Shown piece after piece: positions 7,152 through 52,958 of a stretch of 54,569 nucleotides of DNA (position 1 is its first letter; each line of letters starts with the position of its first letter). The notes under the pieces were generated by a model. That model saw only the letters and a program-made list of their open reading frames with translations, was not told where the DNA came from and ran no database searches. Location: assembly GCA_000310025.1 (NCBI GenBank), contig FN649728.1:2921737-2976305 (forward strand), written 5' to 3'. The DNA is from Ectocarpus siliculosus (Eukaryota; Sar; Phaeophyceae; Ectocarpales; Ectocarpaceae). A program made the translations under genes and the position numbers.

Positions 7152-8643
7152 TTACAGGTAGCGATCGATACTCTGTATGAGGCTTCCCTCTTCGGCGATT
7201 TTCGCCCACTTATGCATATTGAAGTTGTTTTTTCCCCCCACCTACACAAAAGTACAAGCAGCGGGGACCATGCAACAAATACAGGCTGTACGGCAGTACT
7301 TGCTCACGACCACAACATGGTTTTCCCAGCTTCCCCCTCTCAGTACACCTTCCCCCTTCTCAATCCATTTGCCAAGGAAACTTCAGCCATACAATAAATA
7401 AAGTGCTCAATGTCAAAACACATGGCGCAAGGGGCAAGGACCAAACACTTGAATCAATAATTCCTAACAAACTACTACAATAATACCACTTTCTTTTTTA
7501 CTGTGTACCCTGGTGCTATGTACGCCGCTCGGGAAGTGGTTCACGAACGCAAGGTTTGCACGAGTTACAGCCAGCCATTGGTAGCGGGCGTTTTCTCTCG
7601 ATGCGTCAGGGCTCGCGGTAAGCTGACGAACCTCGCGCACCTCTTGCCACAACTGCATGTGTGTCTTCTTCAGTTTTGCCAACAAATGAACTGCAAAAAA
7701 ACAAACCTACGTGTGTCAACACCCAAACCAGTAGTAGTTCTATATGCCAGCAACCATCTCGGCTTACCGCGCAAGGACATGTTTCGAAAGGGTGAACGCG
7801 GTGGGGATACGCCCAGAGACTTGGCATCAACTTGCTCTGTACCCCCTCTACCCGAACTCAGCCATTCTGCTTAAAATATCGCATCCGGTCAATCAAGAAC
7901 GCTTCACAGCCGAGACCAGCTCTGATCTTCCGTCCTTTTGCACCAGATCTTGAGCGATTGCAATGGAGTCCCTTGCGGGTACTGCTGTATTTCTCCCCCC
8001 CCCCCCCCCCGCCCCCCGGTGTTTGCCATCGGGATTTGGGTTTTCGTCGCTTGGCAACGACGTTGTAAAACAAGCCCCCCCCTCGGTGTTTGCCATCGGG
8101 ATTGGGTTTTCGTCGCTTGGCAACGACGTTGTAAAACAAGCCAATTCACTTCGTGAACTCGGCAACCGAGGTTACCGTTTTTTTTTTTACCTCGGTTTTT
8201 TTTTTTGGCGGTAACCATAATGGTGGTCGAGTAGATCATGCTGTGCGGGGTGGAGAAACCTCACTCCGCGCAACGGGGGATGATCGCACCACGTTGTGTT
8301 AAAATGGTCAAGCTTCCTCGAGGCAGTTACACAGTGCTTACAACTGTCTCTGGAAGTAAAAGCACCAGAAAATAAATTAAGTCATACGTAGCTGTCATCC
8401 GTACGCAAGGAAGTAAGCACAAGATGCCGAACACCCTTAGCAGGATGCAGCTCACCCTTCATGCGACTCGCCAAATACCTCACGGCGCTTCGCGCTTGGG
8501 TGATGTGAGAGCCTGGTCCGGTGAGAACCCGGCGTGCTCCGTCCCGGCTTTGTAGGGATGCGAGGTCAATGGTCAAACGACTACGGCATGCACGACTATG
8601 AGTACACCCCCCCCCCCCCCGTCTTTGCACAGACCGAACCCAT
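7152..8643 (-). pseudogene. Candidate small gene split by repeat copy C
   Basis: Three minus-strand exons chain in phase: 7836-7768, 7690-7632 and 7241-7152 (stop TAA at 7154-7152). They read a non-repetitive, amphipathic tail with AKLKKTHMQLWQEVRE and HKWAKIAEEGSLIQSIDRYL. Upstream, an ATG at 8643-8641 opens MGSVCAK and runs straight into the C run at the edge of repeat copy C. On the far side of the copy, a frame with EKYSSTRKGLHCNRS leads to a donor at about 7928 (tctg|gtgcaa) whose phase fits exon 7836. Without the repeat these pieces would give a small protein of roughly 100 residues whose start (Gly2, Cys5) resembles an acylated membrane-anchor signal. I do not recognise a family. The start codon lies only 78 bp past the RIB7 stop. 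The downstream exons are moderately convincing; the link to MGSVCAK is weak. Confidence 0.3.
7995..8620 (-). repeat. G-run repeat family, copy C (inverted)
   Basis: Inverted full copy of about 626 bp. On the plus strand it begins with a C run (7995-8010, then g and cccccc), has two 66-bp units with the cgtcg/cgacg core, the ggttaccg/cggtaacc inverted pair around A/T tracts at about 8170-8220, and ends in gactatgagtaca followed by 14 C (8607-8620). It lies just downstream of the RIB7 stop codon. Confidence 0.9.
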
Positions 8644-14238: not shown

Positions 14239-14631
14239 GCGGACGAAAGAGGTTCAAAACACCAACCCGAGCCAGCGTGAGCTTGGCGTTTGGAACAAAG
14301 ACCGACGCACAGCAGTCCCTACCTGGGCGAGGCAAGCATTTCCTGGACAACAAGCGCTGACGATGTACACACTTGAGAGCGTAGCAAGTTGTTGAAGGCA
14401 CCAAACAAACACAACCAGCGAGGTAGACTAGTTGATTACGCCGCATCTCCGTCGCCCAAAGGGGCTCCGCCGGATAGGCTGGAACCTGCCAAATTGCGGT
14501 GCAATATCTTTTCGATCCTGCGTTGGTGTGGCAGTGGTGGGTTGGGTCAAGGGCGCGTGCGAGCACAACGCCAGCAACGGTGTCCTCTAACCCTAGCTAC
14601 GTATTCCATGCTCATGCCATAACTTATCAGG
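14239..14631. promoter_or_regulatory. Shared divergent intergenic region, RIB7 / PPG-C2-EF
   Basis: Only 393 bp separate the two predicted start codons, which point away from each other. Both promoters and 5' UTRs must lie here unless the plus-strand gene has further 5' exons. A plus-strand Pro-rich reading (SPSPKGAPPD, about 14445-14475) might be such an exon, but I could not find matching splice sites. No TATA box was identified. Confidence 0.45.
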
Positions 14632-17600
14632 ATGCTGCCGCAACGTCCCGCTGGTGCTCCTCCGCCTCGGCCGGGAGGCAAACCTCCCGGCTCACCGCCG
14701 GCAGCTCCTCTAGGGAAGCCGCCCGGTCCACCGCCAGGTCCACCGCCAGGGAGTCCCGGACAAGGTAAGCTGATGAAGTAGGCAATAGGTTCATGCAGAG
14801 GGATAAGAATCGGCAGTTGTAATTACAGTATAGTGGTCCTCGTATAGGCCAATAGTGTGCCAAGGGATTTAGCGGGCCTTCCTATACCGAGCACTCGAAA
14901 CTATTTTTTCAGGGTGAGACAACTTGAATATTTCAATATTCCATCTGGGTGTCAGGCAACATCGCCGGCATCGTACAGGGCAACCGGCCTTATACATGAA
15001 CCACTTCGGTGTTGAGGAGGTTGTGGTGCTCGGTGTGCGCAATTGTCCATGACGGTCTATCTACAGTAGCAAAGTGAATCATTCTCGGCATTCATCCATA
15101 TCTGAGCTTATCCCAACAAGGGCCATCATGGGATCATAGCGTGATCCAGCATCCAGTATCTTATTCGCTGTGGAAAGAGGAGCGGCAAACTGGGGATACC
15201 ACATGCTCCACTGGTGTTTGTGACCCCCTCTTGACATTGTTCCGTCGACGTTCCAGCTGTTGCCGCTAAGGCACCACCGACAGGACCACCACCTGCTACA
15301 GCGTCATCGAGTGTGGGGCCTTCAAAACCACCGCCAGGTGAGTGATTGCAGGTTTTAAATCAGTTTTCTGCTCAACTTCATTGCGGTGTACTCTGCTTGA
15401 GTCAAATTTAGTTGGCTCGGAATCGTACGGGCTTCGTATTGTGTCTGAACTGCAGTGCATCAGACTGCATGCATGGATGTCATATATACCCCGGAATGGC
15501 TCCGTGAAACGTGTTTTTCTACACGATATGGACAGAGTGGTACTGTCACTAAGCTGTAATGTTCACCAGTAAACGGTTTTCGTTGTTTTGGTGTTAAAAG
15601 CCTTTGGCGGAAACGGTAAGTAAGACCGATATTCGGTGGTGAAATCAACGGGAGTACATACATACCCGGAAGTTTGCGGCAAAAGAAAAAGAGTTGCACT
15701 TTGCGGTGCCCCTCCAGGGGGTGGGGGGGAGGGGGCGTGTCTGGGCACCGTTGATGAAACGTAACGCGAGACACCGGTCAGCAGCATGCTTACTTGTACC
15801 TCGATAAAGGAAGATGAACATGACGGTGTGATCTCTCCAGCAATGACGGGTTCGTGTCGGTTGGGAATTGATACCCTTATGCATACCCTCGCCGACAGTT
15901 TCCATGAACAGCGTTCTCTTGCGGCTTGGATAAGTTTGGGCACTTCGAACAGCAGGCAACCTGGGTGTATGTATGGCGCATGCGTAGGATCACAAGTACA
16001 ATACAGCTACCTCAGCGTTGCTCACGGAGTTCATATGGTATTCGACGAGTGCTGTGTACATACCCTGTGCTGTTTTGTCCTGCACAATGCAGGCGCACCG
16101 CCCCCCAGGGCGGAGGCCAAGGCTCCTGCACCGGTTCCTGTACCCGCGGCGAAGAAGGCACCACCACCTCCCCGGGTTGGAGCCCCGGCGTCTCCACCCC
16201 CGCCGCAAGATGGCAAGAAAGATGCCAGCGAAGCCGAGGGTCGATCTTCGCCGAGACCACCGCCTGGAAAACCTCCGGGAGGTCCTACCCGAGCAACGCC
16301 GCCACCAGGTGAACAACGCCGCTTGGCTATCTTAAACTGTTGGACACCACCAATATTAGGGGACAAGGAGCTCTCCCCTGACTTTTCTTCAATTGTTTGG
16401 CGGTGGAACCCACTCCGTTGCTGTCTTTGCTCGTTTCCTTTCTCCGTCAGACGAGCGGCCAATCACAAGTCCTCTCAGAACTTGAGGGGCAAGTACTGAA
16501 CTTGCGCACACGAACGGATGATAGTGATATCGTAGATACCCGCTACGAGAGCTTGCCTCCTTTCACTTGCGCAAAGATTGTTTTCTGCCGCTCATGTTTG
16601 CCCCCGACATACGATGGTGATACACGCCCCACAGGCAGTCCGGCATCACCTGCTGGCTCCCCACCCCCCCGAGGCCCACCTCCTGGCCGTCCACCACCAG
16701 GTATTTAAGGCAGGCAACGGCCTCGGCCAAGGAGAACCAGATAACAGGGTGACCCCGATGTTGTGTCCAGCTAAAACATCCCTAGTTATGTAGTGATGAA
16801 CTTCTGGTGGGAGGGGGGATCAGATCTTCGTGCGGGTGACGTAGACAAAGGGATGGCAATACCACGAACCATGGCATTAGCTTCGTCGTGGTCGATAGAC
16901 AACAGAACCTTTGCCATCTAGCGCCTTATCAAGAGCCTAGCCCCACCTCCCACTGCGTCAGAACGGTCAGATGACAGCACCAGCATGACAATAATAGTCC
17001 CTCCTAACCCAGCCCGGCGTATCGCCCCGTTCGTTCAGTGTAGGGACGGGAGGTCAACGGTCTTAAAGACTACAGCATGCGTTTACATTAGTACCCCCCG
17101 CCCCCCCGGGCCCTCCCCGTCGCCCCCTACCCCCCCCACCCAACTTGTCCCCGCACAGGTTCTCCGCCTTCTGGTAGGACCTCTCCTCCCAGTAGCCCGC
17201 CCCCTCGTGGCCCACCGCCCCGCGGTCCCCCCCCCCGCGGCCCGCCCCCTCGTGGTCCGCCCCCCCGAAGTCCACCGGGAAAGCCTCCTGGCGCCCCTCC
17301 AAGTGCAGGAGTCTCACCTGCACCAGTGCAGTCGTCTGACCAGCTTCAACAACAACAACAACAACAACAACAGGGTGTTGTCGTCGGGAGAGAGCAGGCG
17401 GGCGCTGGAGGAGGAGAAGGAGAACGAGGGTCGGCGGGCATGGGGAATGGTGGAGAACCGGAGCAGGGGCGAGGGCAGCCGCCCGGAGGACGAGATGCTG
17501 GCGGTGGTCGAGATCGTGGGGCAGAAGCAGCGAGCCCGCCGCCCGTGAAAAGGCCAAAGACGCCTCCTCCCTCTGCCAAGGTATGTCCACGCATACACAA

Positions 17601-20600
17601 GCGCACCCTGAGTTTGGTAGGTCTTGAAACACAAAGAGGTGCACGTCGTCGTCAGCGTAGTGTGGGCACCGAACTTATCGGTACCCACCTACACACGCAT
17701 CGACTGCACGGAAGGTGTTATCAGCGCCCAGCGCAAGTAACACACCTGAAAAAATATAAGAAACAGTACCACCCTTTTCCGAGAAGACCGGCTCCATTTC
17801 CTGCACGTTTTCTCCACGACGGGAATTGTCCGACCGAAGAACAGTTCACGGAACGCACTGGGCGCCAATAGTGCGTTTATGGCCGCCAAGACGAGGTGCG
17901 GTACCTCTCCAAAATGTTACAGACATGGAGCGAGGATAATTATCCAAAGGGATACTCCGCTGTTCGCGCTTCCTTAGTCACCTAACCACTGGCCACACAT
18001 CCCTTGTGAAACGGCCGTACACCATTTTTGGTTGCTTGTTGCTTTCATCTCCCACAGAAGCCACTCGATCAAAAGTCGCCCCCATTCTTTGGTACCGTCC
18101 TCAGTCTCAACGAATCATGTTCGTGTTCTAGCGTTATTTTTTCTCGATTCTGAATTGTTTCAACTGATCAGATATGGTGGAGTGTCGGACTTCGAGTCGA
18201 ATGAGCCCCCCCCGCCAGTGATTACTTCGCATACTTCGGGAAAATCGCAACGGTTTGGCACGCCCGTCGCACCAGTGGTCTAATAGTGGGATTTCTATTA
18301 ACCATCCTAGTGACTTGGTTTTGCCAGTTCGAGAATGAAGTTCGCCATTTTATCAAATACGTTTCGTATTTCAAAGCGCTTGAAAGGTGAAAACCTGGTG
18401 AACTCTTCTCGTGGCAGAAACAACGACGAAGGCGTGCGCCTCAGATGAGTTTTTACTGTTGAACGTCGGGTCGAAAATGTCCACTAAAAGGAGAAACGAT
18501 GGCGCACCGTAGGTAGAGACTGCGGGTGAAGGTTAATTTGAACGGGTGACGGAAACAGAAAAAAAATCCGCACAAGTATGAAGAACCAACGGACACTCCA
18601 TTGCCGAAGATAGGGACCAATGGACACTGCATTGCCGTAAATATGAGTTGGGGGTGGTATGGGCTGAAGAGTAATTTAAAGTTAGTGGTTTCTTACGTCG
18701 TAATCGATTGTTCATGACAACCGAATGTCGCAGGCTCCACCTGGTGTACCGCATGGAATGGTCCCGCCAAAAGCCCAGCCGCCAAGCACAGGTACCGGCA
18801 GTGGCCAACAGGCCATAAAGGCCATGGATGTCGACACCGGGGATGGCGCCAACACAGGGGGCATCACGGCAGAACAACCAGGAGAAGGGGAAGACAAAAA
18901 GGCAAGCAATGCCGCCCATTGTTGTTGCGTACTATGAGTGTCGTCGGCGAAGACGCTGGTCGTCCTCTTCTATTGTTGTTGTTGTTGTTGTTGTTATTGT
19001 CGTTGTTGTCGTCGTTGTTTTCGTTGGTAGTGGTAGTGGTGGTGGTGGTGGTGGTCGTGGTCGTGGAAAATGACGGTAGCGGCGGTGGCGGTGTAGTGTA
19101 CGCGGCTATCCCTTGTTGTTGAATTCATTGGGAAATAATTGTGATGGTGATCATGGTAATGACGGTGGTGGCGGTGGTAGCGCGTGTGTTCATCATCCAA
19201 TTAAGGAAGAGCGAGAAACAAGAAAAAACGCCCCATGCTCCACACATGCCATGTTTCGACACGATTTGTGTATCTCGCGCCTAACTTTCTCTCTGTCTGC
19301 TGCTGCATCTACGCCGCGTTTCCCTTCCAGGATTCTCCAACGGCGTCCCCCGCGAGGGCAAGGGCGGCATCGCCACCCGGAGACCCAGGGAGGCGTCGCC
19401 CGCCTGCGGGACCACCGCCTGGCAGGCGCCCCCCCACGATTGCGCCGCCTACTGCGAGGCCGGCCCCGCCATCGGTGGAAGACGTTGCCCTCTTGGCCCC
19501 CAAAGACGAAGAGGTGAAGATGCGGCGTGTGCGTTTCGTCTTCATCCTTTGCTTTTGACAGCGCTGACAGGGTGGCACTGAGAAAAAGCGAGTATGGCAA
19601 GAGGGTTGTGCTACGGTAGCACAGATGCTAACGGCTTGGAAACTCAAGCCCGAACATGTGAAGTCTCAGCTGGGGGGGGGGGGGGGGGGGGGGCANNNNN
19701 NNNNNNNNNNNNNNNNNNNNNNNNNNNNNNNNNNNNNNNNNNNNNNNNNNNNNNNNNNNNNNNNNNNNNNNNNNNNNNNNNNNNNNNNNNNNNNNGGGGG
19801 GGGGGGGGGGGGGGGGGGGGGCAAACATGATCAAGTGTTCGTACCGCCGGGGTTCCCTGAATGCGTGGGTGTTAATTCTCTAGGAGTCATCGACCACGCT
19901 GACACACCAACGAGAGGGCGTCAATCTTAGCCAGCAAAACAACACACAAGTATTTCTAGAGGACGAGTACTGCTGGAACAATAAAAGAAGATTGACGATT
20001 AGCAGAATTTTCTGCGGCCGCGAGAGAGCATGGCGAACAATGACAATGCCCTCTTTCCTGCGCAAAATGTTTTAGATGCACCCATCGTAAGGACGTTTGT
20101 TGTCGTGGCTGTTCGAGGTAGTGTGGTCCCAAAGGGGGATTGAGGCGGCGCTTCCCGTCTCAATCAAGCTATCTTACAATACAACACGATACGATAAAGG
20201 CTGTGGAAACAGGCAAACCCTGCACGAGGTGGAAACTTTTGAATCGCAAGCTTGTGGTGTTTTCACTCCCTTGGTGGTTTTCTGTTATGTTCAACGCCTT
20301 GCTGGGAAAAAGCCTAAACACAAATTGCTGTCTTTGCGACAACCAAAACATGAAAAACAAAATGCAATCAAAGCTCTTTGTTGAGTTGGTTGCCTCAGAA
20401 AAGACACGAGTCGTGGGGACAACGACCACAACAAGAGCAACATATTTCACTGGAGTGTGCGTGTGCGTGTGCGTGTGCACTCTACTTTATGCATCACCTC
20501 GATCTGTTCTACACAACAATGTTGAAACCAAAACGCAACCCAAACAAAGGAGATAAATGCTTCGTAGAATTTGAGTTTCCTCTCGAGTCGAGTTCGCAGG

Positions 20601-23600
20601 AATATAGATCACAGCTGAAGGCGGCCGTTGTTCTGTTGCATAACAGCAAATCATCATTGCGGACGAGAACGAGCTCGAGGCGGAAGAGGAGAATGTTCCG
20701 CCGCCACCGGAGGGACTGCCACCACCTGATGGCCTCAGCGACGACGACGATGACGACGAGGAGGATGCCCTTGCCGAAGGTGCGGTACGGAGCGGTGCAG
20801 CGCGGTGTCGAGATTGTTGAACCGGCGTGTATGTTGAAAAAATCGAACATCTTCAGGCGGGATACAAGACGTACCGGCGTGTAAAAGTCCGCTATTAGTT
20901 TCTATCTTGGCTGCATTGAGACTCAAGAAGGGGCAAAGGCGCCGCAATTCAAATGGAATATACGCCGGTACACGGTATAATGAAACATCATGCTGACTTG
21001 CATTCTAGTTTTGACGAACTGTAGATCTGCACCGAGCTGATCATCAGTACTTGGGGCTATCTTCCCCCAACCGTGGTTGTTCGGTCGTTCGCCTTCCGAG
21101 CATCGTTGTCACGAAGGTTGAGACACCATGATGAAGTCTACCCGTTCTACACTGCCCGCAACTCCGTAATTCGTGTGCTCAGTTTCTTTATTCCAACCGT
21201 AGCCAAGAACAAGTTTCAATCTTCTCTCTCCATTACCAGTCCAACCGGCAACACCAAGAATGGCACGTTTTTTTTCTTTTCATGTCGCAATACCCTTTTC
21301 TCTTACAGGGCAAATCGTCGGGGTGGACGAAGACGACGCAAGCGAGGGCGGAGTCGCGGCGAAGGACCTGGAGGTGTTGAGACGGGGCAGGTTCATCGTT
21401 AGGTAAATAGTGGCTATGTTGGAATAGAAAGCTTCAATTTTGCACAAACCCGAAAGCACAAGGCCATGTCCATCGTGAGGTAATGGCTACGTTGAAAAAA
21501 TCATACTATAGAAAGATTGAATTTTGCACAAACCAGAAAGAAGAAGATCATGTTCTGGAGATACGGAAAAGCTTAATTATGCAACGATAACGCAAAAGAC
21601 GTAGGTGGGCCGATGGACTTGGAAGTATTTGCCGGCCTTTCGAGTAATGGGCTTGAATTTGCTGGAAAGGGCACAGATAGACTCTGAAGGAATTGCCCAT
21701 GTCGCATGAGAATATTGCTTCCATGGTAAAAGTGAAAAAAGTGGCAAGGATCGGGACGCCCTAGAGGAAACCAGGCGAGCAGATGGAAGTTACATCTTCA
21801 AGTTTGGGAAGCTCGACTTAAAGGGAAGACGATCGCAATACACCGAAACGAAGGAGAAAATACGAACAAGATGCCCATACGTACAACGTCTCCAGAGCCT
21901 GGCTGTGGGTGGTGTTTCCTGTGAGATTTTGGAACAATTTCTTGTCTCGAAGGGGTACGTTGCCAACGGTTGCAATATTGTGGCAAAGAAACAAGCGTTC
22001 GCCGATCCCTTCCCCCTCCGCTCCCATGGACCAACGGTGCAGAACATGGAAATTTTCACAACGTTGAGCTACTAAACCGCAACGAGAACATTCGAACAAC
22101 AACCTAAATCGCGATGCGATGGGTGCTTGCATAAAATTCTGCGCTGCGCACGCAGGTGCATTGAAGGTGGGGACGTCAAGAAGAGCGCTCTGTCCAACAA
22201 GACGCCCACCGTAGACCCTTACCTCAGGGTAACCCTTGGCAAGCACAAGAGGGCGCCCACGAGAAAAACCAAAGTGAGAAAGGGGAGGGGGTGAAGCCCA
22301 CAAAGAATGTCACGTGGGAGAAGAAAGGGGGGGGTTCTGCCGCTGCTGCTGTTTACTCAGTGTCTGAGGAGCCGAGGGCAGGGTGGCGATGTCTACAATA
22401 ATACAAGGGAAGAGGGGCGGGGGGTACTCATGGTCAGTCGTGCATGCCGTAGTTGTTAGACCATTGACCTCGCATCCCTACAAAGCCGGGACGGAGCACG
22501 CCGGGTTCTCACTGGGCCAGGCTCTCACATCACCAAGCGCGAAGCGCCGTGAGGTATTCGGCGAGTCGCATGAAGGGTGCGCTGCATCCTGCAAGGGTGT
22601 TCGGCATCTTGCACTTACGTCCTTGCGTACGAATGAAAGCTGCGGATGACTTTTTTTTTTCTGGTGCTTTCACTTCCAGAGACAGTTACAAGCACTGTTG
22701 TGTGACTGCCTCGAGGGTGCTTGACCAATTTAACACAACGTGGTGCAATCATCCCCTTTCGCGGAGTGAGGGTTCTCGGGCCCGCACAACATAATCTACT
22801 CGACCAGCATTCATGGTTACCGCAAAAAATATACCAAAGGCAAAAAAAAATGCGGTAACCTGGTTGTCGAGCTCACGAAGTGATCGGCTTGTTTTACAAC
22901 GTCGTTGCCAAGCGACGAAAACCCAACCCCGATGGCAAACACCGGGGGGGCGACTTGTTTTTCAACGCCGTTGCCAAGCGACGAAAACCCAACCCCGATG
23001 GGAAGAGGGGGGGGGGGGGGTAAAGCCAACGAGGGAGGGATGTCAATCAGCCAGCGAGGAGGAGTAGAGACGGCCACTCTCCGATATCAGAACCAACGGC
23101 GCATTGTAGGACAAGTTGTTATGCTGAAGGCATGTAATTCAAAGGAGGTTTCTGTGTGACCCCCGATCGTAGCTCCTCACGAGATAATGCACGGTAGGCA
23201 AGCACTTCGTGTGACGGGTATGGTTTCCCAGGCTTGTCAAACACATCCCGGTCCATAATGATGAGAACGTAAGACTTTTGAATGACGGTGCTGTAGTTTT
23301 TTGTCGACTGTCCGGTCTATGGTTTCACCCTTCTCATTCTCTTCTCCTGCCCTATCTCTCTGAACCGCCTAGCTCCAAGAATTTTTTCAATCAGAGAAAC
23401 AGGTACGACTCTTCTGCCGTGGGACGCACGAAGCCTCTGGCTGTCCTTTCACTTTCGCCATCTCTCTCTATGTATATATCTTCCCCGCTCCCTTCTCTTT
23501 CTCTCCCTCTCCCCCGCTTTTTCAACCCCTCGCCCTTCTCACTCTGAGCAGGTGGTGAAACGAAGTGGAGTCAGCCCTAACTTCGAGTCCGAGAAGCTGG

Positions 23601-26600
23601 TGTTCGACATCGTGGAGCCGGACGAGTTCGTGGTGGGCGGGGACGTTACTCTATCGATCGAGATCTGGGACGACAGCGCCTGGTCGGATGATCTGCTGGC
23701 GTCTGTGAAGCTTTCCGCGCTCAGGTGCGTGTGGGAGGGGAGGGCCGAAGAAGGAAAAACGCGAGCATGCTGAAGCGGCGAATTGTCTTGGCGGCACTGC
23801 TTGCGACGTCAATTCTGTTTGCTTCACCGCCTACTGTAGCATGTTCTGCACGCTTTTGGAAGGGTGAAGAGAGTTCATACACATGTAGCCCTGAGAGAAC
23901 AGACAGGGCTAGCAAGTTGTCGAACTCAAGCGAATACGTGGCACGCAGATGGGAGGGGGGGGGGGAGAGAGAGAAGCATGGAACCGCTCGTTTATCCCTC
24001 ACGCACACTTTTTGTGACACCTCTGCTCGTTTCATCCAGGTTCATGCATCCAGATGCTATCCCTTCCGCGGAATGGTTTCCACTCGAGGCTCCTTCCGGA
24101 CGCATCAAGGACCGGATGAAAGTACTGGTATGTACAGCAGCAGAGAGAGGACACGTAGTTGGACCAACAATAGATACAACGGATCGGTCGGTCCTGTTGC
24201 ACTTAAAAAACGGAAATAGTGTTTCCTCAGCAACCCGACCAATCTTCACCCGATCCTTCCGAGCCCAACCCAATCAAGCCATGTGACGTTTGACTATTCA
24301 ACTACGAAACGTTTCCTCCCTCCCGACGTTGTGCTTGTCGACCACGCTGTCCGATGGGATGGTTGATTGAATGGCAGGTGGAAATATCGTTCGAGCCAGC
24401 CCTTTTGGGCATGTTTGTGCTGACTCTTCACGAGGGCAAAGGGCTCGGTGCGCACGACCCAGCCTCGAGACCCAACCCTTACGTCGTGGCCACCCTGGGA
24501 GAAATGTGAGATGCGGCAGAGAATGAGAGAGCGAGAGGGTCTACGAGCACCAGGAGGGGGATCTAAAATACTCAACAATAACAAAATACGGGTGCCCAGA
24601 GATAGACGGCGATAAAATAGAGTATTGAGGTAGAGATAGTCAAGAAGCCGAAGGAGGGGGGGCGTGAAAACAACGAGCAGGCATCCCTTATAGTGACTGA
24701 GCTCTCTTCCGCCCCCATTTTTTTTGTGAATACCAAACGTGATCAACCCAGAGTGGATCGTTGCGTTGCAGGTGTGGAATCCTCTGCTAAATTCTTCTGT
24801 TCGGATGGTGTTAGTTAACGGTCTGCATCGAAAACAAGTATCAGGAGTAAACGATGTTTTGACACCAACTGAAGACGCGACATTAGCACTGAAAGTGTGT
24901 TGTTTCTGTTTCCGCATTTCCATCGCAGGTACCAGAAGCGGAGCCGTGCGGCTAAAGGCGGGGGGAGTGCACCGGTCTTCAGGCAGGAAGAGATCGTGCT
25001 CTGGATCGACAAGGAGAACTGGACGAATGACCTCCAGCTGCAGTGAGTACCTACTCTGCTGTGTGAGCCTGTAAGGCATCCCTTCTATTGATCTCTTCTA
25101 ATTACTTAACATGATCCTCACCATCCCTTGCTCCATCAATCTGGTCTTGAAACGTGAAGGACTTTGGAGCGAGACAGTACCACATGCATCATTCCGTACC
25201 TGCCTTTCCGGTGTTAGAAACGAAACCTGTTGTTCACCATGTTCTTGAGGGGGCCCCCCCTGTTCTTTGCTGCAAGAAGTGATCGCGTTCGTCACGGCCT
25301 TCTCGTACCTACCGCGAAGCTCACCTCTGCGTCACGGTAATCGCGAAAACACCTCCTGTTTACCTAATGGTGCGTGTCGTCAGAGTTCGAAGCGAGGACA
25401 TAGGAACGGACGCAGAGCTGGGGTCGGCTAAGATCAGCGTGCTCCACGCCATGGACATCCCTCCAGAACAAGCCACGGTAAACAAAACAGAGACGCACCG
25501 TAACCTGCCATGATGAACCTGCCATGATGAACAATGCAAGGAAGTAGCATGTGAGTTCAAGCTAGGAACTTGCTTCCGAAGCCTGAGTACATCGAGTGTG
25601 ACCGTCACGCCCCTGTTCATGCCCCTGGCACATCCGACCGGCCCGCGTGCGAGCGTGCTGAGCGTTCCAACAACAGTTGCTTGTCCGGACTGTACGAAGA
25701 AGGAAAGGAGCCCACGCCCACCCTCGTTTATCGTCGCCTGATCGGCCTCGTGCGTTGTATTCGTCCATTTCTACAGGAGAGGAAGATCGAGCTGCTTCTG
25801 GAAGGGCAGCCCGCGGGCCAGCTTTTCGCGAAGTGCGTCTTCCTGCCGGCAGGAAAGCTGTCGTTCGTGTGCGAGAGCGGGCGGGGCCTGAGGGAGACGT
25901 CGGCGGCCGGGAGGATGGACCCGTACGTTACCTTCAAGGCGGACGGACAGGTAGGTGCACATGGCGTTGGCTGTATGCTAGGTACATTGCTGAATGTTGC
26001 GTGTGCTTCTAAGGCGAAGATACAGTAGTAAGGAAAATAATGGTACGATAGGTAGCCTTCAAGGCAAGCCGATTGGTTCCGAGGAGCTACTAGTTCATGG
26101 GTCGGTTTCTGGATAGCGTGGAATGTGTTTAACGGCGCATTCATATTTACATGCTGTGCTATGCAAACGGAAATACACGTCTCGGTAGGTGGTACTGTGC
26201 ATCTTTGGCTCTACAGTATGGTATGTGCCTGCCGTGAATTGGTCTACGTGTTGCGCGTCTTCGTTCTGCGGGTCCAATGTGCACAGCGGTCACCACGAGG
26301 AACACGAGTAAACCGCGTGACTGATCGGAAGTGCCTCGAGGAGTGAAATTCACGGCGGGCGTTCGTCCTTTGTCCCCTAGGCGGCAATTCGGTCTTGGTC
26401 CGTTCGAGCTGACGAGCTCACCCATGGAGTCATCGCAGAAAGCAAAGCAAAAACTTTCTCCCGAGTATTTCATCCGCCCACCCTTTTCCTCGGTTGTCTT
26501 CGTTGGTGCGATGGACGTGTTGTATTTGTCGATGGATCCATGGATCAACGACGCCGTCCAAGGCTGTGTCGCTGAGCCGAAAGACCAAGGTCGACAAAGA

Positions 26601-29600
26601 CGGGGGGATGGACCCTCGGTGGAACGAGGTACGCGTGGTTGCGGTTGGTGTGGCTGCAACCGAACAAGAATAGATCGGGGCAACAACTAAAGTTTGGAGC
26701 TAAAAGGGGGGTGAATATATTTCTCCTCGTTCCGGTTTTGTGTCGACTGCGACTAAAGGGTGGGCTTCAGGTTCCACCCGTGGATTCTACGCTCGAAATA
26801 ATGCTGGCACAAAAGCGTTGAGAGTTTCTCAAGAAATGCTTGCTTTGGTGCTGCATCCCTAAACCAAATGCTTCCAGACGATAGAAATTGACGTTGTGGA
26901 CCAGTACACCCTTTGGCTGGAGTGCTTCAACCACGATGTCCTGGACAGCGATGAGCTCATCGGGAGCGCACAGTGCAGTCTCCTGCCAGTGTTCAAGCGA
27001 GGTGAGCTATCTCTGTCCGCTATCGTTTATCTACCTGAATATCGCTTTTCCTCCCTCACGAGCTTCTCAAGAATAGCTTTTCATCTACTTGTCGAGCTCT
27101 GATCTTGATGCTACAATACTACAGTATTCTCCCGAAAATTCAAAATTCGATCCCGGAAATACTACGTACGAATACCCTGCGGCGCTTCAAAAAGCCCTCG
27201 AGATTGCATCGCTTTCGTGCTTGCAGCGTAGCTGCCCCTCCCTTGACAAAATGCGTTGGTTATGCCCGTCCGTCCACAACACAAACAACATCATGCAAAA
27301 AAACAACGACGACAACCAAGTCAACGGCAACATCAACACGAATACCACAACGGCAAACATTTCGCAGGCACCTTGGACACTTGGATCCAGCTCACTTGTT
27401 CCTCCGGGCCAGGCCCTCCAAAAGAAGCCGGAGAGATTCACTGCGTTTTTTCCTTCAAAGGCCCGCTCGGGGTCGCCTATCCGCAGCACCAGCCGGGAGT
27501 CGATAGCTTCGACGACTCTCTCCGTGTTAACCTTAGGGTGAGTAGGCGAGTGAACCAGTGAGGGAGTGCTGCTGTAGGTGCGTTATTACGTTGACGACCC
27601 GACCACCCAATCCTGCGTGTAATCAGATTGATAATGACGCAAACATTTTTATTCCGGCTCGGCAACAGCCTCGGGGTTCATGAGGGAGTACATTGTGGGG
27701 TCAAAATGATCAGCGTTGCCTCTGACACGTTGGACACAGATCACTCGCGTTGCCGTGTGTTTTCATCAGCGCGAGGGGAAGACCACCTTTCTTTGACCGA
27801 CCACCCGTCTTCGCTGATCCTGTGAAAGTCAAGACGAGGCGGGCCTGCGAGACAATTTGTCGCTCTATTTCATGTTGACCGTACATGAGGACATCAGAAC
27901 CGTACGTCGACGTCACAGCAGCAGAACCACTTGAAGTATGCGACGAAGCGTAATGAGAGAGTATCAAAAGTGACGATCACACGTTGTTTCATGTCTGTTT
28001 CATCTGCAAAATGTCTGCCTCTTGTCTCAGGGCTACTTGGAGGTGACGAACGAGGAGGATCAAACGGCAGGGCGGCCAGAAGAAGAAACGACAGCCATTG
28101 TTGGACACCAAGACCAGCCACCGTTAGAGAGGTGTGCTGCCTAAAAACTCGCATCGGCGACGCTTTGGCTAACCGATGACACGTGTGTTCTATAGGAGGG
28201 AGTGTGTGCGAGTAAAGGGGAGCAACAGTATTATAGTCTGGGATAAATCGACTCGGGGGTACCATGTTTTGCTCGTTTTTCGTACGCGCACCCCTTGAGA
28301 GACTCCTGCAAATCGCTTGTACAGTAGGTGATACGGGTTCTGTTTAAACTGCTGTGCCGTGTTGAAGGTCGACGGAATTTACCGACGACGAAATATCGGC
28401 CGCCTTCAAGTTTCTGGACCTCGATCGCAACTTGCACATCGGGGCCGCCGAGATCCGGCATATACTCATCTGCATGGGGGAGCTCATCACAGACGAAGAG
28501 GTGACCACCAACACTTGAATCCGTTAAGAGCTGCGTTTCGCATGCATGCTTCAGATATTCCTCATAAGAGTCTACGTCAACGCAGCGTACACTCGTAGTG
28601 GTTGCAGGTCGCGCCGGCGTAACCCGCACGTACGCGAAGGTTTATAGATATGATGATGCCTGCTTGGCCTTGCAAGTTAGAGATTTTGTGCTCACGTTTG
28701 CTTCTCTCTTGTCTTTGGAAAGAATTGCACAACGCCTGCTTGTTATTCGTCACAGATGAAACACCAAATACACCACCCCCCAAAGTTTCTCCCTCTGCTA
28801 AACCACCACACAGCGGTGGGACCACCGCCGTGCAACGCTACGCAACCCCAGAGTACCACGCAAAATCCAACACGCCACACGCAATCAACCAAAGCCCCGA
28901 GACGCAACACTAAGACAAGTGCATGGAAAGGCAGGTAGACATGATGATATCGATGGTCGACAGCGACGGAGATGGGCAAGTGAGCTTCGAAGAGTTCCAC
29001 CGCTTGGTCATCGACCCGGATCCGTCCAGGGCCGACTTTAGCACCGAGCCAATAACAAGCAACAACGACGGGAAGGAGGCCGCCCGGGTTTCCCAGGCAA
29101 GTGGCAAGGGGTTTGAGACGAACGGAAAACCGCCCAGAGTTACGAGTTCCGCGGTTGTGCTTAACGTCAACATTGGACGAAAACGAGTATGTAAAGAACG
29201 GCGATGAAGGAGGGAGGTGTTAAAGATTGCATAAACGCTTGGTTGGTTCTCTCACGCGTTGCACTTCGGGGAACGTAACGTCTGGTTGTAGGTACGCCAT
29301 GTGTGTTGGCGCTTTTGTAAGCATCAAGAAATGGGAGATGTGGGTAGGATTTAGGGTGGCCGTGTTGATTATCTGTGGTACTGCATTGATAAAAACACTT
29401 CCACAGATGCGTCAGTCTATGATCGCTTGAAACTGGAATATACATACAACCCATTCCGCATGGCCTTTAACATGGCAAGACCCTACAATCTCCTTGGCAC
29501 ACAAACAAGCAACGACACAAGTCACAACAACACCAACAACGACGAAAAAGGCATACCACCACCACTTGGATTGCAGGAGATGAAGGACCGTGAGAGCAAG

Positions 29601-29820
29601 AGGTGGCTTCTGGAAGACTTCGTCAAGGAGAATGAGATCAGAGCCGTCGAGCTCGAAATGGCCTACAAGCGCTTCCAGAATCTCGCTCCGTCCCGCACTG
29701 GCGACAAGCAAGCGACCTCCTCTGTGGAGATGGACTTCAACACGTGGATACTGGTGAGCTTGAATAAAATACAGAACGACAACGTTCTCCTTTGGAGTCC
29801 TTTGGAGATTCTTCTTTCGG

Positions 29821-29863
<43 letters not shown>

Positions 29864-32288
29864 ATTGTTGCTGCTGCTGTTGCTTTCGAATGAGCAAATT
29901 ATTCTGATCTGAACTATGTTATTGCCCTGTAACGCCGATGCCAAGTTAAACGGTAGTCATTATGGCACGTGTGTTCACCGCTTCGCCCACAGGTCTTTAA
30001 CGTGGAGGCTACGGGACAGTACCGGAAGCTGTTCAAGCTTTATGCTCTCCCGGGAACAGGCGGCGAAACCGACGCTGAGCTGGAATCTCAGAAAGTCGAC
30101 ATTCGGGAGGTGTGCGAGTGTTTACGTTTCTTTTATTAGCGTCGACCACGCTGACCGAATGACCAATGAAAATAAGTCAGTGTCAGCGGGTAAAATTAAG
30201 GTCCCTGGAAGGGTGTGTGTGCGCGCGCGCTCTTGTTTACCATCGACCGCGCTGACCGGCCGACCACTGAAAGACGACCGCGTTGTAGTGTATATATATG
30301 TGTTTGTGCATGTGACTATCGCATTGATGTTCGGAAAAGCTTTTAGATCCCACTATTGCTACCTCCCTACTAGCGACAGGAATGAGTCAAGTCATGGTCA
30401 CAGAGACGGGGATCAGCGTGTACAGAAGCTGGCCGCCAATACGATGCAAGAAATTGAAGCAGGAGAAATACCATTTTTTTATCGTGAACGCAACGTCTAC
30501 GCACGAATGCCATCCGGCCCCTCGTGCAGTAGGGAGCTTGGCTACCGTCCCATCGATGCGGCCCAAATAGGCAAGGATCGCCCACGGTCCATGGGAGATG
30601 AAGTGTGAAAGATCGCGTCATTCACCGTGCTGTTTGTGTGCAAAGTCTGTTCTGGCATACATACATGTACTCAAACCAATTGATGAAATGCTTGTATTCT
30701 TGTGTCCGCCACAATGCTCAACCAGTAGATGTCGCAGACGCCCTACCAAGCCCGTTCCGGGACACCCTGGGTACAAATAAGCTGAACGTGTGTGTGCTTT
30801 CCTATTTCCCTCAATCTCGAACTCGGCCAACCATTCGATGAAGAACATGTCAGCCTCATGGGCCAAATCGTGTTGTGTGCGTATCGTGTGCGTATCGTGT
30901 GCGTCCATTGTGCATTGTGTGCGTACCTTGTGACAACTCGATTCATCGAACGACCTACTGCTGTCGGCCATCAGTTCTTCCTGGGAATGGCGAACTTCGT
31001 GGAGTGGTCGCTGGAGCCACGGACACAGTTTATATTCACGCTCTTCGATGACGACCGAAGCGGCTTCCTATCTATGGTATGTTCTTGTGCGTACCGTGGT
31101 ACATGATGCCTCCCGCATGTCACCTGCAGATAGATGTGAGATTCAGTTCGATTTGAATTTTTTTTTAGTACTTACGGACGCTTGCGACTACCCCAAGCAG
31201 AGTACACCACAACACGAAAACGATGCCTCAACAGCACGACATGGCTAGCATATAAGCGAAATCACGACCTCATGTTGTCCTTGGGACCACTTTCTGGTCG
31301 GCCTCTCACACACAACCCTCCCCCATCTCATGTACTTCTTCTGTCCGTCTTTTTGCTTTCCGTTTTCTTACTCGGTTTTGTGTGCGAAGGACGAGTTGGT
31401 GGCCGTCTTGAAGGCGAACCACCTGGCTACCGCCAAGGCCGTCGCGAAAAAGGCGCAGACGATCATGAAACAGGCGGACGCCGACGGGTCGGGCACGCTG
31501 ACGCTAGACGAGTTCTTGGTCGTGGCCAAGAAATTCCCGAACCTGGTGGGTGATGTGGTGGTACTGATTGTCCTCTGTAGACTGTTCATGATTTGTTTTG
31601 TCTGGTGCGAACAAACGGGCCTACCCGCCGAACACCGTTGGTCCATGTATACTCTGCCATTTGAGTATGCAGCACCTGATCGTACGGCCGCCGCCAATTC
31701 TCTTCCACAAGAAGAGTCGGGATGCAGATTGGCGTAACGTGAGAGCGCACCCCCGAGTCCACGACTCTTACATGTTCCATGGGCCAGGAGGAGCCTGAAG
31801 CCCATAAGCCAAGTCCGAGAAACCCGTTCTCCATGCCCCGCGCAAACGCGGCCCCGCCCCGAGTTTCAGTGATTATACATTGATAGGGGTTTTTTAGGAT
31901 AAGGAGGCTTTTGACGCCTCTGATTGGTCGGTCGTTGGTTCGGCGGTCGATTCCTCTCCAGAGCCCTCTCCCCATTCCGAATTCCGACAACGCGGTGAAG
32001 CCGCGCTTTCGCCCAGTTCGCGGCCGGTAGGCCGTAGGTTGGCCGTGGGTGAGCGTTAGAGTTGGGTTGGACTTGGTCGGCCACGGTGTGTGACCCATCC
32101 CATGGTCGGAACCTAGGTTCAACATCCTGGTAGACCTAAAGAATCCCTATCGACATGTAACCCAGTCTCTATTATTTCGTGCCTCTTTGCCCGTCTGCCC
32201 GCCCCTCGTCTCCTGCAACCAGCTTTTCCCGGCCAAACCAAAGACCAACGAAACGCAACCGCAGGTTCCGATGCTCGGGAATGGGTAA
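14632..32288 (+). CDS. PPG-rich, triple-C2, four-EF-hand protein
   Basis: Predicted 1252-residue calcium-dependent membrane-binding or scaffold protein. Exons: 14632-14764, 15257-15337, 16093-16308, 16635-16700, 17159-17580, 18734-18901, 19331-19513, 20647-20779, 21309-21402, 22156-22273, 23552-23724, 24040-24127, 24378-24505, 24929-25042, 25384-25477, 25777-25950, 26563-26628, 26878-27001, 27368-27537, 28031-28131, 28368-28500, 28935-29096, 29577-29753, 29993-30109, 30975-31076, 31390-31545, 32223-32288. All phases fit. Residues 1-306 are Pro/Gly-rich with PPG and PPRG repeats and a polyglutamine run; 307-490 are Pro-rich then acidic. C2-A spans about 485-600 (VDPYLRVTLG), C2-B about 630-735 (NPYVVATLG, Asp replaced by Asn) and C2-C about 755-880 (MDPYVTFK, DVLDSDELIG). 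EF-hand loops start DLDRNLHIGAAE, DSDGDGQVSFEE, DDDRSGFLSMDE (across a splice junction) and DADGSGTLTLDE. Introns 6 and 22 use GC donors. Intron 7 holds the assembly gap; intron 10 holds repeat copy D. The true first exon is unproven. No family member with this domain order is known to me. Confidence 0.85.
17347..17373 (+). repeat. Coding CAA/CAG repeat (polyglutamine)
   Basis: Nine consecutive glutamine codons, eight CAA and one CAG, lie in exon 5 of the PPG-C2-EF gene, between its Pro-rich part and a Gly/Glu-rich part. Length variation between strains is likely. Confidence 0.85.
18972..19060. repeat. TTG / GGT trinucleotide microsatellite
   Basis: A TTG-rich run passes into a GGT-rich run, wholly inside intron 6 of the PPG-C2-EF gene. 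It creates spurious frames of poly-Leu and poly-Val. Confidence 0.85.
19672..19821. other. Assembly gap (100 N) between two poly-G runs
   Basis: The 100 Ns at 19696-19795 are the usual placeholder for a gap of unknown size. The left edge is 22 G followed by ca; the right edge is 26 G followed by caaacatg. The two edges can be overlaid, so the true gap may be zero or negative. It lies in intron 7 of the PPG-C2-EF gene and breaks no predicted exon. Confidence 0.95.
20453..20478. repeat. TGTGCG short tandem repeat
   Basis: About four TGTGCG units lie in intron 7 of the PPG-C2-EF gene. Confidence 0.8.
22407..23020 (+). repeat. G-run repeat family, copy D, with 11-bp direct repeats
   Basis: This copy lies in intron 10 of the PPG-C2-EF gene, in the same orientation as the gene. 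The body runs from tactcatgg (22425) to cccaaccccgat (22999) and holds two 66-bp-type units, the second shorter at its end. The sequence gggaagagggg occurs directly at both edges (22407-22417 and 23000-23010) and looks like a target-site duplication. It has diverged more than copies A-C, for example in the A-tract region, so it is probably an older insertion. Confidence 0.88.
29821..29885. repeat. GTT/GCT trinucleotide microsatellite
   Basis: About sixteen GTT units followed by GCT units lie in intron 23 of the PPG-C2-EF gene. Confidence 0.9.
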
Positions 32289-41200: not shown

Positions 41201-44200
41201 TGTCGTTCGACACGGTTAAAGCTGTGTCCGAGTGGCGGGTGAGACATGTATTAGCAGAGCTATGGCACCACCACATTCCGCATTAAAGGAGGGATATATG
41301 TATATTTCCCTGACATTGGGTAGAATGAAGCCAACGTATCCATTGGCCACCCACTCTCCCTCATGGAAAGAGACAAAGAGCAGCGGTGGATTTGGTAACC
41401 TTTGCCGAGGTAGTCCGATCGACAAGAGTCGGTTCAGTAAAGCTTTGTTTGGAGTGACCGCGGAATTCCTCTTTCATCCTTGATGTGTACACTACTTTTA
41501 CTAAGCCGCACGTACGTACGTGTTGTTGGCTATTTCCACAGACGACGTTCCTTGGGTCCGGAAAACCAGGGTATCGTCGCATGCACCCTAGCGAATCAGC
41601 CCTGGTTCGGTCCAACGGAATGACGAGATTCCTGGAATCGCCCGCAGAGTTTCAGGAACATGATCATGATATCGGTATAGTCTACCGTGGCGACGAAGAA
41701 GGGCACCTTCAAGGCAACAAGCAAAGGCACAGCCAGAGAGAACACCCGGGGCTTATTGACGCTTCGCCGGAGGGACAACAAGCCGGACTCAAGCGCCGCA
41801 GCAGCGCAGCCGAGAGCATGCACCACCATGAACCACACGACGTTCGCGATGAGGACGATGACAACGCACTCACGCGGTCGATAACCGTCCCTCGGCCTTT
41901 CGTCGGCAAGAACGACAGCAACCCGGCCCCTGTGTTCCTCTGGAAGGGCCACAACTACCTCACCAAGCTGGCTCATGATCTAGAGTTTCTCGATGACGCT
42001 GACGAGTCCGCTCCGGTCTCCGCTTGGCTTGGCTTCTCGGTCCGAGACAATCCGTTCCTCATCCCTCCGAACGGGCTCAACGTTTGCGAGGATCTGCGAC
42101 GGCAGCGCGAGGAGCGTCGTGAGGAGGCGGCCGTGCGGCGACGGCAGCAACAGCAACACCAGCGCTCTGGGGGCACAGGCAACGGGCAGAGACGCCTGTC
42201 GCGCTCTCGGTCTCGATCCCGAGCGAACAGCGACGACGACGACGACGATAAACACCGACGTACGTCCGCCAGCGGCGATGTCTCTGCACCTCTGCCTCGC
42301 GGGCAAAGCAAACAAGAGCGAGAACAAGGCCGCGATCCCGACAGCGACATCAAGGGTCGTGATGCACGGCCAAAGCCGATGGTGCTAACGCCGCAGCAAC
42401 AGTCGGCGCCGCCCATGGCGGATGCAGACGCGAACGACGAAGGTCGGCAGCGAAAATCAGAATCGGCAACCGAAAACGTGGTGACGACCAGCCCGTTGTT
42501 GCTGGTCACCGATGATCAACGCGATGGCGTGGATGGTGGGGGTGGAATTTTTGTCACCGAGGGCGTGGCGAGGAGCGCTTTTTCGACGGCGGCGGCGGCG
42601 GAAGGCAGCCTCCGCTCGGCGTCAACGTCGGTCGAGTCTCCGCTTTTCCCGCCGGGCCTGGGGTACTCGGACGACGAGAACACTATCCCGCACCAGCTGT
42701 CAACGGACGAAGAGGAGGAGCTGCAGTGGGCGGGAGGAGGGCGCCTCGACCTGCCCATCGTCCCCAAGCTTCACGAATCGGTCCGCTCCAAAGCCCTGGC
42801 CGCGGCGCAGGTGCTCCGGAGCGAGGCCGCGTCCGAACAAGCGCTCACGTCGAGCGCCCGGGCGATCCTCTCCAACGCCAGGCGCACGGAAGGGATCTTG
42901 CACACTCCGGAGAAAGATTGCTCCTTCAGGATGGAGTCGCTGGCCGAGCGGAGTGTCAGGGAGGGGCTCAGAGGCGCGCTGGTGGACAGGCACGTCGGCG
43001 CGACAAGGCTAAAGTGGTCACCGTCGTTGTTGAAGTCCTCCTCTTGTGTGATGATGGGAATGTCGCCGTGCTGTAGGGAGGAAGAGAGGCCTCCGTTCGT
43101 TCGGTCGGTGTCCACGGCGCCCGCGAGGGGCGGTGGCCGTCCAGGGCTCGCCGTGATTTGCTCCGGCGCCGCTGCTGCAAGGGGTCGGGCGGGCGCGGCG
43201 CGGCTAGGCCACCGCCGAGCGTTGGCGGCTTTCGGCAGCAGGGGCGGCGGCGGCGGTAGCAGCAGGGGAGGGGTGCGTGTCTCGGTAGATGGGCATCGCG
43301 AGGCAACGGACGGGGCGATAGCTGGAGCGGGAAAAGGAAGCAGCGATCCCTCGCGATGTACCCAGAGCGTACCTAGAGACGGCAACAACACGAATAACCG
43401 CAACGAAAAGGGAAAGCGTGCGCCGCTGCCCTCCTCCCGATCGCAGTGCCTCGAAAGCGGCACCGGATCTGAAACGTCCACGACGAGGCTGGGCGGGACT
43501 AATGAGGGAACCGCCGACACAACTGCTGTGTCCGCCGCTCCTCCCGGGGACCGGTCCACGACCTCCTCTTCCCTCCAGGCAAGCTCCTCCACCATGTCAG
43601 CCCGGGCGCGAGCCAAGGCGCTCGCGGTCCGCCCCACCGCCAGGCGCCGCCCGTTCTGCCGGAACGGCGGCGGCAGGGTAATCATTCCAGACCCGGGGGT
43701 ATCCCCGGATGTCCGTCGCCGGGCGGCGGCGCGGATCCAGGCGGCGTTACTGGCCTTGTGCGCGAGACGGTACGTCCGCGGGCTGCGGGACGACCGCGAT
43801 CGCGCGGTACGGTTGATTTGGCGAAACTGGCGCAGGTGTAGGGCCAAGGCGGACATGCGCACCGCGAGACGCCTGAGGCGCGCCGAGGGCCTGCGGCGGG
43901 TAGCGGAGGAAAGGTCGAGGAACCGCGCCGCCCACGTCGTCCAGACGTTCTTCAGGGACGTCAAATACAGACGGGAAAGGGTGAGGGAGAGAGAAGCAGG
44001 CCGCCTCTCTCGACTTCAAGTACGACGAACGGGGACAGAGACAAAAAAACACTTGTCTGAGCGTTGGGCTCTATCCATGGCTTGAGGAAGAGGGCCAGCA
44101 GCAAGTATCGTAGTCCCCGCCCACCGTGTGTCTGGCTTGGCTTCGAAAGGCACCTGACAAGACATCACAGGATCCCGTAACGATGGAGCCAAACACCGAA

Positions 44201-52282: not shown

Positions 52283-52915
52283 TTACTTTCCGCTGCGGTC
52301 ACGCGACCCTCGGAGTTGCCGGGACTGTCCGCCAGCCGCCTGCCGGACGCGCTTAGCACAACGCTCGCTGGCGCCGTCATCGCCGGACGCCTTGTTGACG
52401 TCCACGCAGCCACTCCCATCGACCATGTCGTCGTCGTCGTCGTTGTCGTCGTGGCCCCTCTTCCGCTTCCCGAAGCTGCTGCTGTCGAAAGGCGGCGAGG
52501 GCGGCGAGGGCTCGCTCGATGACACGTCGCATCCCCCGGCGTTGTCCATGGTGTTGTCCCAGGCGATGCCGCCGCCGGTGCTGCTGCTGTTGCTACTCGC
52601 GGAAATGATCCCCCCTCCGCAGCCGCCGCTGCCGCCGCTGCTGTCGTTGCTGTCCAAGGTGGTGGCTCTGCTGCCGCCGCTGCCGCCGCTGCCGCCGCTG
52701 TAGGAGCAGTAGCGGCCCCCAGTCTTCGCCCTTTTGCTGATGACGTCAGCCCCACCGCCCAAGTCGTCGTTGCTGTTCTTCCTCTTCTGCTTCCCCAGGC
52801 AGCTATCGCGAGACGGTGAGGAGGGCGAAGATGCGCTCGATGACCCGTCGCAACCGTTGCCTTCGTCTGGGCGACTCTTGTGGTGAAAAGCGCCGCTGTA
52901 TCCTACGTGGTCGCC

Positions 52916-52958
<43 letters not shown>

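Follow-up and report, generated by a model that had tools for sequence, protein, structure and literature searches.

A brown-algal gene model with a Pro-rich tail, three C2 domains and EF-hands that may encode an undescribed calcium-controlled adaptor

Families that join C2 domains with EF-hands include PI-PLC, calpain and the C2/EF-type phosphatidylserine decarboxylase, the module order and number of which we take to differ from those of the protein described below. A calcium-binding C2 domain holds its ions through five acidic loop ligands, an EF-hand loop usually carries Gly at position 6, and the neuronal calcium sensors bear an N-terminal MG myristoylation site. Among brown algae, DEK1-like calpains are reported to combine C2 domains, EF-hands in one species, CysPc and many transmembrane segments (PMC13413365). 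Outside these families, the nearest functional parallel that we encountered is, by analogy, annexin A7, whose Pro-rich tail of 180 residues (about 24% Pro) is reported to phase separate (PMC10634317).

The locus analysed here belongs to Ectocarpus siliculosus and lies in a stretch of 54,569 nucleotides (“the window”, taken at its full length). Twenty-eight exons on the forward strand (14632-32288) splice to a single open frame of 1,257 residues, in a chain that was rebuilt from the sequence and whose splice sites were initially picked by eye. Its features are as follows:

14632..19513, + strand: N-terminal Pro-rich tail, exons 1-8, aa 1-428 (30% Pro, 16% Gly)
20647..21385, + strand: Pro/acidic linker, exon 9 plus the first part of exon 10, aa 429-498 (26 D+E, 3 K+R)
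21386..24127, + strand: C2-A, exons 10-13, around aa 499-630 (matched by Pfam over aa 501-614; N,D,D,D,D read at the calcium positions)
24378..25477, + strand: C2-B, exons 14-16, around aa 631-742 (matched by Pfam over aa 643-732; loop 1 with NPY; D,N,S,D,E read at the calcium positions)
25777..27537, + strand: C2-C, exons 17-20, with its core around aa 767-890 (25849-27447; matched by Pfam over aa 769-872; S,D,N,D,E read at the calcium positions)
28368..29096, + strand: calmodulin C-lobe-like EF pair, exons 22-23 (loops 28417-28452 and 28959-28994; EF-hand_7 56.6 bits)
29577..31004, + strand: proposed degenerate EF pair, exons 24-26 (part), aa 1053-1160, ending near VDIREFFLGMANF
31047..31512, + strand: EF3/EF4, exons 26-27 (EF3 loop 31047-31076 + 31390-31395; EF4 loop 31477-31512)
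32223..32288, + strand: exon 28 of the gene model, C-terminal 21 residues and TAA stop

The introns have GT-AG borders in 25 cases and GC-AG borders in two, namely introns 7 and 23, with their GC donors at 18902-18903 and 29097-29098. An in-frame stop at 14620 precedes the start ATG, and each of the 27 introns, if retained, would bring at least one stop into the frame. The spliced C2/EF part is interrupted by 22 and 18 stops in its two other frames, and its GC content at third codon positions (GC3) is 0.74, versus an overall GC of 0.50 in the introns. A preliminary description of this DNA had chained 27 exons in phase into one protein; the one frame stands as a gene model but the exon count does not, and the lower number may come from the omission of the 15-nt exon 3, which is frame-neutral when skipped. 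Two further variants appear as possible isoforms, i.e., an optional in-frame exon at 23373-23402 (LQEFFQSEKQ), which we excluded from the model because it would interrupt C2-A between RKTK and VVKRSG, and an alternative in-frame GT donor in intron 23, after 29186, the use of which would add 30 residues to exon 23.

When the 761-residue C2/EF part was compared with Pfam, C2 was found over three stretches (E 5.1e-34), and the three domains, scored individually with PF00168, reached 40.0 (C2-A), 32.2 (C2-B) and 55.2 bits (C2-C), all above the gathering cutoff of 22, in agreement with the three C2 domains of the preliminary description. Their calcium ligands were also read by eye, from PDB alignments that are in part weak. 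For C2-A, the best PDB match reaches only E 0.013. In a weak alignment to the C2 domain of PKC alpha (E 0.045), Asp is found at the loop-1 DPY and at three loop-3 positions, one loop-3 residue being missing, while in an equally weak alignment to synaptotagmin-3 (E 0.038) the first loop-1 position is Asn, with an adjoining insertion of three residues. C2-A thus probably has four of the five calcium aspartates, and its acidic residues at the calcium loops were, on these weak alignments, probably recognized correctly in the preliminary description. The same description was right about the Asn that replaces Asp in the NPY of C2-B, which reads D,N,S,D,E against 1wfj (E 0.004), with a gap beside the last position. 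Its placing of C2-C beside C2-A, as keeping acidic residues in the calcium loops, finds less support: this domain reads S,D,N,D,E against the plant protein 1wfj (E 1.5e-8) and is no more intact than C2-B. As far as the alignments can be read by eye, calcium ligands appear incomplete in both C2-B and C2-C.

In the PDB, the C2 region is matched best over C2-C (E 1.5e-8, 3.9e-8), by proteins that include the plant small C2 proteins 1wfj and 5yq3, both aligned to C2-C, and extended synaptotagmin-2. Unlike these proteins and PKC, the product modelled here has three C2 domains followed by EF-hands and shows no kinase or SMP match in Pfam; it also differs from extended synaptotagmins and ferlins in that neither SMP nor ferlin-specific domains occur among its Pfam matches. 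Identity to C2-A is 22% for C2-B and 28% for C2-C, and C2-C aligns to both C2-A (E 3e-7) and C2-B (E 3e-5), values that would fit domain homology and are no proof of a recent duplication. Between the Pfam matches of C2-A and C2-B, with a five-residue overlap into that of C2-B, aa 629-647 reach the highest 19-residue hydropathy of the protein (1.84). This segment includes two Glu and one Pro and appears to be the last strand of C2-A plus the first strand of C2-B. As a rule of thumb, 19-residue hydropathies above 1.6 indicate a membrane span, such as the transmembrane anchor that characterizes synaptotagmins, extended synaptotagmins, MCTPs and ferlins. The segment exceeds this value, and we regard the protein as probably, if not certainly, soluble.

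The EF-hands fall into two modules. Over the 761-residue part, EF-hand_7 (PF13499) matches two stretches (E 4.8e-24), and the corresponding pairs score 56.6 and 39.2 bits, both above the gathering value of 30; the last pair additionally scores 49.0 bits with EF-hand_1. A loose EF-loop pattern gave six matches in the protein, four of which (aa 971, 1007, 1175 and 1214) show the usual ligand pattern and lie inside Pfam EF matches, so that the four EF-hands initially proposed do have profile support. The two other matches, at aa 461 (in the acidic run) and aa 1025, lie outside the Pfam EF matches and were dropped. In the loop of EF1, position 6 is Leu.

Among the best 60 of its 438 PDB matches, the first EF pair has a calmodulin-calcineurin fusion as the top chain, in which the alignment falls on the calmodulin part (82-146). 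The last pair, along with the preceding VDIREFFLGMANF, aligned to calcineurin B (among the best 60 of 338 PDB matches), as well as to neurocalcin and hippocalcin, and the two pairs align to each other over 18 residues only (E 0.002). In neurocalcin, hippocalcin and calcineurin B alike, the aligned part covers EF3 with a preceding VDxREF and, with calcineurin B, it spans EF2-exit to EF4. Moreover, the aa 1053-1160 region has its end paired with that of EF2 in the alignments to the same three proteins. We therefore propose that the last pair may be the second half of a four-EF unit of the neurocalcin/calcineurin-B type, whose first two hands would be degenerate; taken on its own, the aa 1053-1160 region has no Pfam EF match. 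Compared to neuronal calcium sensors, calcineurin B and calaxin, the EF unit is here fused behind C2 domains and its first EF pair seems degenerate or absent. In contrast to the neuronal calcium sensors, the protein begins with MLPQ and is devoid of an NCS-type myristoylation site.

Upstream of these modules, the Pro-rich part had been estimated at about 300 residues, a figure to be corrected to 428. This tail (aa 1-428) contains 15 PPG, 7 PPPG and 9 PPPR, whereas Pro makes up only 11% and 8% of its other frames, and it is net basic (49 K+R vs. 28 D+E). The 495-residue N-terminal part has no match to a Pfam family. A collagen-like nature was considered for the tail and rejected, the longest Gly-X-Y run being five triplets and only four of 67 Gly-Gly gaps measuring three residues. 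Binding to profilin, as suggested earlier, finds no favour in the tail, in which runs of five prolines are absent (0 vs. 1.0 expected in shuffles); the same absence, with that of an FH2 match in Pfam, sets the protein apart from formins (FH1-FH2). EVH1-type motifs are likewise absent from the tail. As for the SH3-like partners proposed at the same time, the case is weak and applies to class I motifs (8 vs. 4.3 expected, a count reached in 44 of 1000 shuffles) and not to class II motifs (2 vs. 4.5, reached in 950 of 1000); these shuffles break the tandem repeats, so that the surplus of PPR (9 vs. 2.6) cannot be separated from those repeats.

Introns 1-5 are all in phase 1, in comparison to 7 of the 27 introns overall (hypergeometric p 2.6e-4, for a test picked after the pattern had been seen). 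Consequently, exons 2-5 are symmetric (1-1) and could be duplicated or skipped in frame, which implies that the length of the tail may differ between isoforms or species. If the architecture holds, the gene may show a Pro-rich arm that has grown through symmetric phase-1 exons.

From a functional perspective, C2 and EF-hand are the only Pfam families above cutoff in the protein, while nothing exceeds the cutoff in NCBIfam. Below it, the matches are to the XopAW family (51.7 bits, cutoff 120), lanmodulin (18.1, cutoff 135) and PRK04387.1 (13.1, cutoff 90), of which the first two were taken as EF-hand similarity. Our preferred interpretation, to which we give about an even chance, is that of one gene whose product would be a soluble cytosolic membrane adaptor operated by calcium. 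Briefly, the main calcium switch would reside in the EF modules, i.e., the calmodulin-lobe-like pair and the putative neurocalcin/calcineurin-B-like unit. C2-A, with its nearly full set of ligands, would add calcium-dependent docking to acidic lipids, while C2-B and C2-C might provide calcium-independent or structural docking surfaces. The net-basic Pro-rich tail could, as a disordered and multivalent arm, recruit partners or undergo condensation, by comparison with the Pro-rich domain of annexin A7. Finally, the acidic linker may serve as an electrostatic latch that restrains the tail, or the surfaces of the C2 domains, as long as calcium is low. The calcium-dependent membrane binding first proposed for the protein is accordingly plausible for C2-A (four of five Asp, in weak alignment) and uncertain for C2-B and C2-C. 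The likeness to annexin A7 lies in the long Pro-rich N-terminal arm ahead of a calcium/phospholipid-binding module; in contrast to annexins, annexin repeats are absent from the Pfam matches, and C2 and EF modules stand in their place.

At face value, the incomplete calcium ligands of C2-B and C2-C would also suit a protein that is mainly a structural scaffold (e.g., of the flagellum or the cell cortex), with C2 domains serving as packing units and calcium only tuning stability, and the C-terminal EF region does match two proteins in this direction, the axonemal calaxin (E 0.0096) and EFCAB1 (E 0.0055). However, both are among the weaker of 27 matches, after neurocalcin and calcineurin B, and neither the four of five Asp of C2-A nor the mostly intact EF loops are expected of such a scaffold, which we hold to be rather unlikely.

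A calcium-operated adaptor with a Pro-rich arm also presupposes that the tail and the C2/EF part belong to the same protein, and the weak link of the gene model is the joining of exons 1-7 to the remainder. GC3 ranges from 0.31 to 0.54 in exons 1-7, near the intron GC of 0.50, and from 0.55 to 0.90 in exons 8-28. Twelve amino acids were compared between the tail (aa 1-428) and aa 497-1257, and the gap holds within 11 of them (e.g., 0.38 vs. 0.84 for Ser and 0.46 vs. 0.81 for Asp), Pro showing none (0.51 vs. 0.49). Under a codon model derived from the C2/EF part, the modelled frame takes negative scores in exons 1, 2, 4, 5 and 6, each of which has a better-scoring frame. A splice-site matrix, built from introns 10-27 and applied to introns 1-9, gives poor scores to four acceptors: those of introns 1, 2, 4 and 6 are outscored by 168, 87, 96 and 256 of 400 AG sites, respectively. 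All these observations would be accounted for by two transcription units, in which a Pro-rich upstream gene or an untranslated leader (exons 1-6 or 1-7) would be followed by a separate C2/EF gene; the latter could start at one of the internal methionines of exon 7 (Met 320 or Met 342) or in an unseen alternative first exon.

Several features nevertheless speak against two units. The donors of introns 1, 2, 3, 4 and 6 occupy ranks 2, 1, 4, 5 and 3 among the 451 GT sites of 14600-21400, which means that the five top donors all sit at the ends of tail exons; in the opposite direction, that of intron 5 ranks 22, and those of introns 8 and 9 are outscored by 30 and 26 GT sites. Across its 428 codons, the modelled frame of the tail has no stop, vs. 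3 and 4 in the other frames. Moreover, the Pro-rich sequence continues in exons 7-8, and from residue 342, an in-frame Met of exon 7, onwards there is no further in-frame ATG ahead of C2-A. Exon 9 joins Pro-rich to acidic sequence, exon 10 leads from acidic sequence into C2-A, and a version of the protein begun in exon 7 would retain a Pro-rich and acidic stretch. In our judgement, two transcription units are unlikely, and the tail and the C2/EF part probably belong to a single gene. The arrangement originally described, with a Pro-rich tail and an acidic linker ahead of two kinds of calcium module, is supported as far as the gene model goes.

By comparison, a degenerate relative of PI-PLC, calpain or C2/EF-type phosphatidylserine decarboxylase that would have lost its catalytic part is very improbable and was rejected, no enzyme domain or catalytic family appearing among the NCBIfam matches or among those that Pfam gives for the 761- and 495-residue pieces, and the frame closing at 32288. 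More specifically, the X and Y catalytic domains of PI-PLC and the CysPc domain of calpains are absent from the Pfam matches; the brown-algal DEK1-like calpains share with the calcium-operated adaptor proposed here the C2 domains and, in one species, the EF-hands.

Each module of this adaptor is ordinary, while their combination may constitute an undescribed calcium-controlled adaptor. The preliminary description knew of no family with this order, and we found the same module order neither in the openly licensed literature (by titles and abstract openings) nor among the Pfam, NCBIfam and PDB matches listed, which leaves the claim without a counterexample within that scope; those from Pfam and PDB are related to individual modules only. 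An annotated orthologue family is quite possible, our survey having covered openly licensed papers, Pfam, NCBIfam and PDB. No relatives were found in IMG/VR (where one stretch matched a pattern) or in the GTDB genomes (where seven stretches did), which is no surprise for a gene of eukaryotes. Should the architecture prove real and conserved, a single protein could sense calcium through modules of two types and couple it both to membranes and to a multivalent tail, which would make it a testable candidate calcium effector. Going further, we tentatively suggest, as a possibility that is somewhat doubtful, a lineage-specific family of dual calcium sensors in which two different EF modules, three C2 domains and an exon-duplicated, condensate-forming Pro-rich arm would make up an undescribed calcium-gated membrane scaffold in a single protein.

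Elsewhere in the window, two long stop-to-stop frames have no Pfam match at E 0.1: one of 875 residues (41458-44085, + strand), Arg-rich near its end and IQ-like by eye, and one of 551 residues (52283-53938, − strand), of Ser/Gly-rich low complexity. Intron 8 of the gene model contains an assembly gap of 100 Ns (19696-19795), with poly-G on both sides (19672-19821). A dispersed repeat of about 600 bp, perhaps a mobile element, is found at 1-1070, 7999-8620, 22417-23022 and 46224-46761, the copies being 62-100% alike depending on the aligned piece; two of them lie in the first kilobase (604 bases apart), while the others are located at 8 kb (inverted), in intron 11 and at 46 kb. Finally, the 15-base motif TCGACCACGCTGACC, allowing at most two mismatches, occurs at 19890, 24338, 30142 and 30243, always on the + strand, and all four copies of the window fall in introns 8, 13 and 25, vs. 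0.20 expected in shuffles, in a post hoc test of a pattern spotted by eye.
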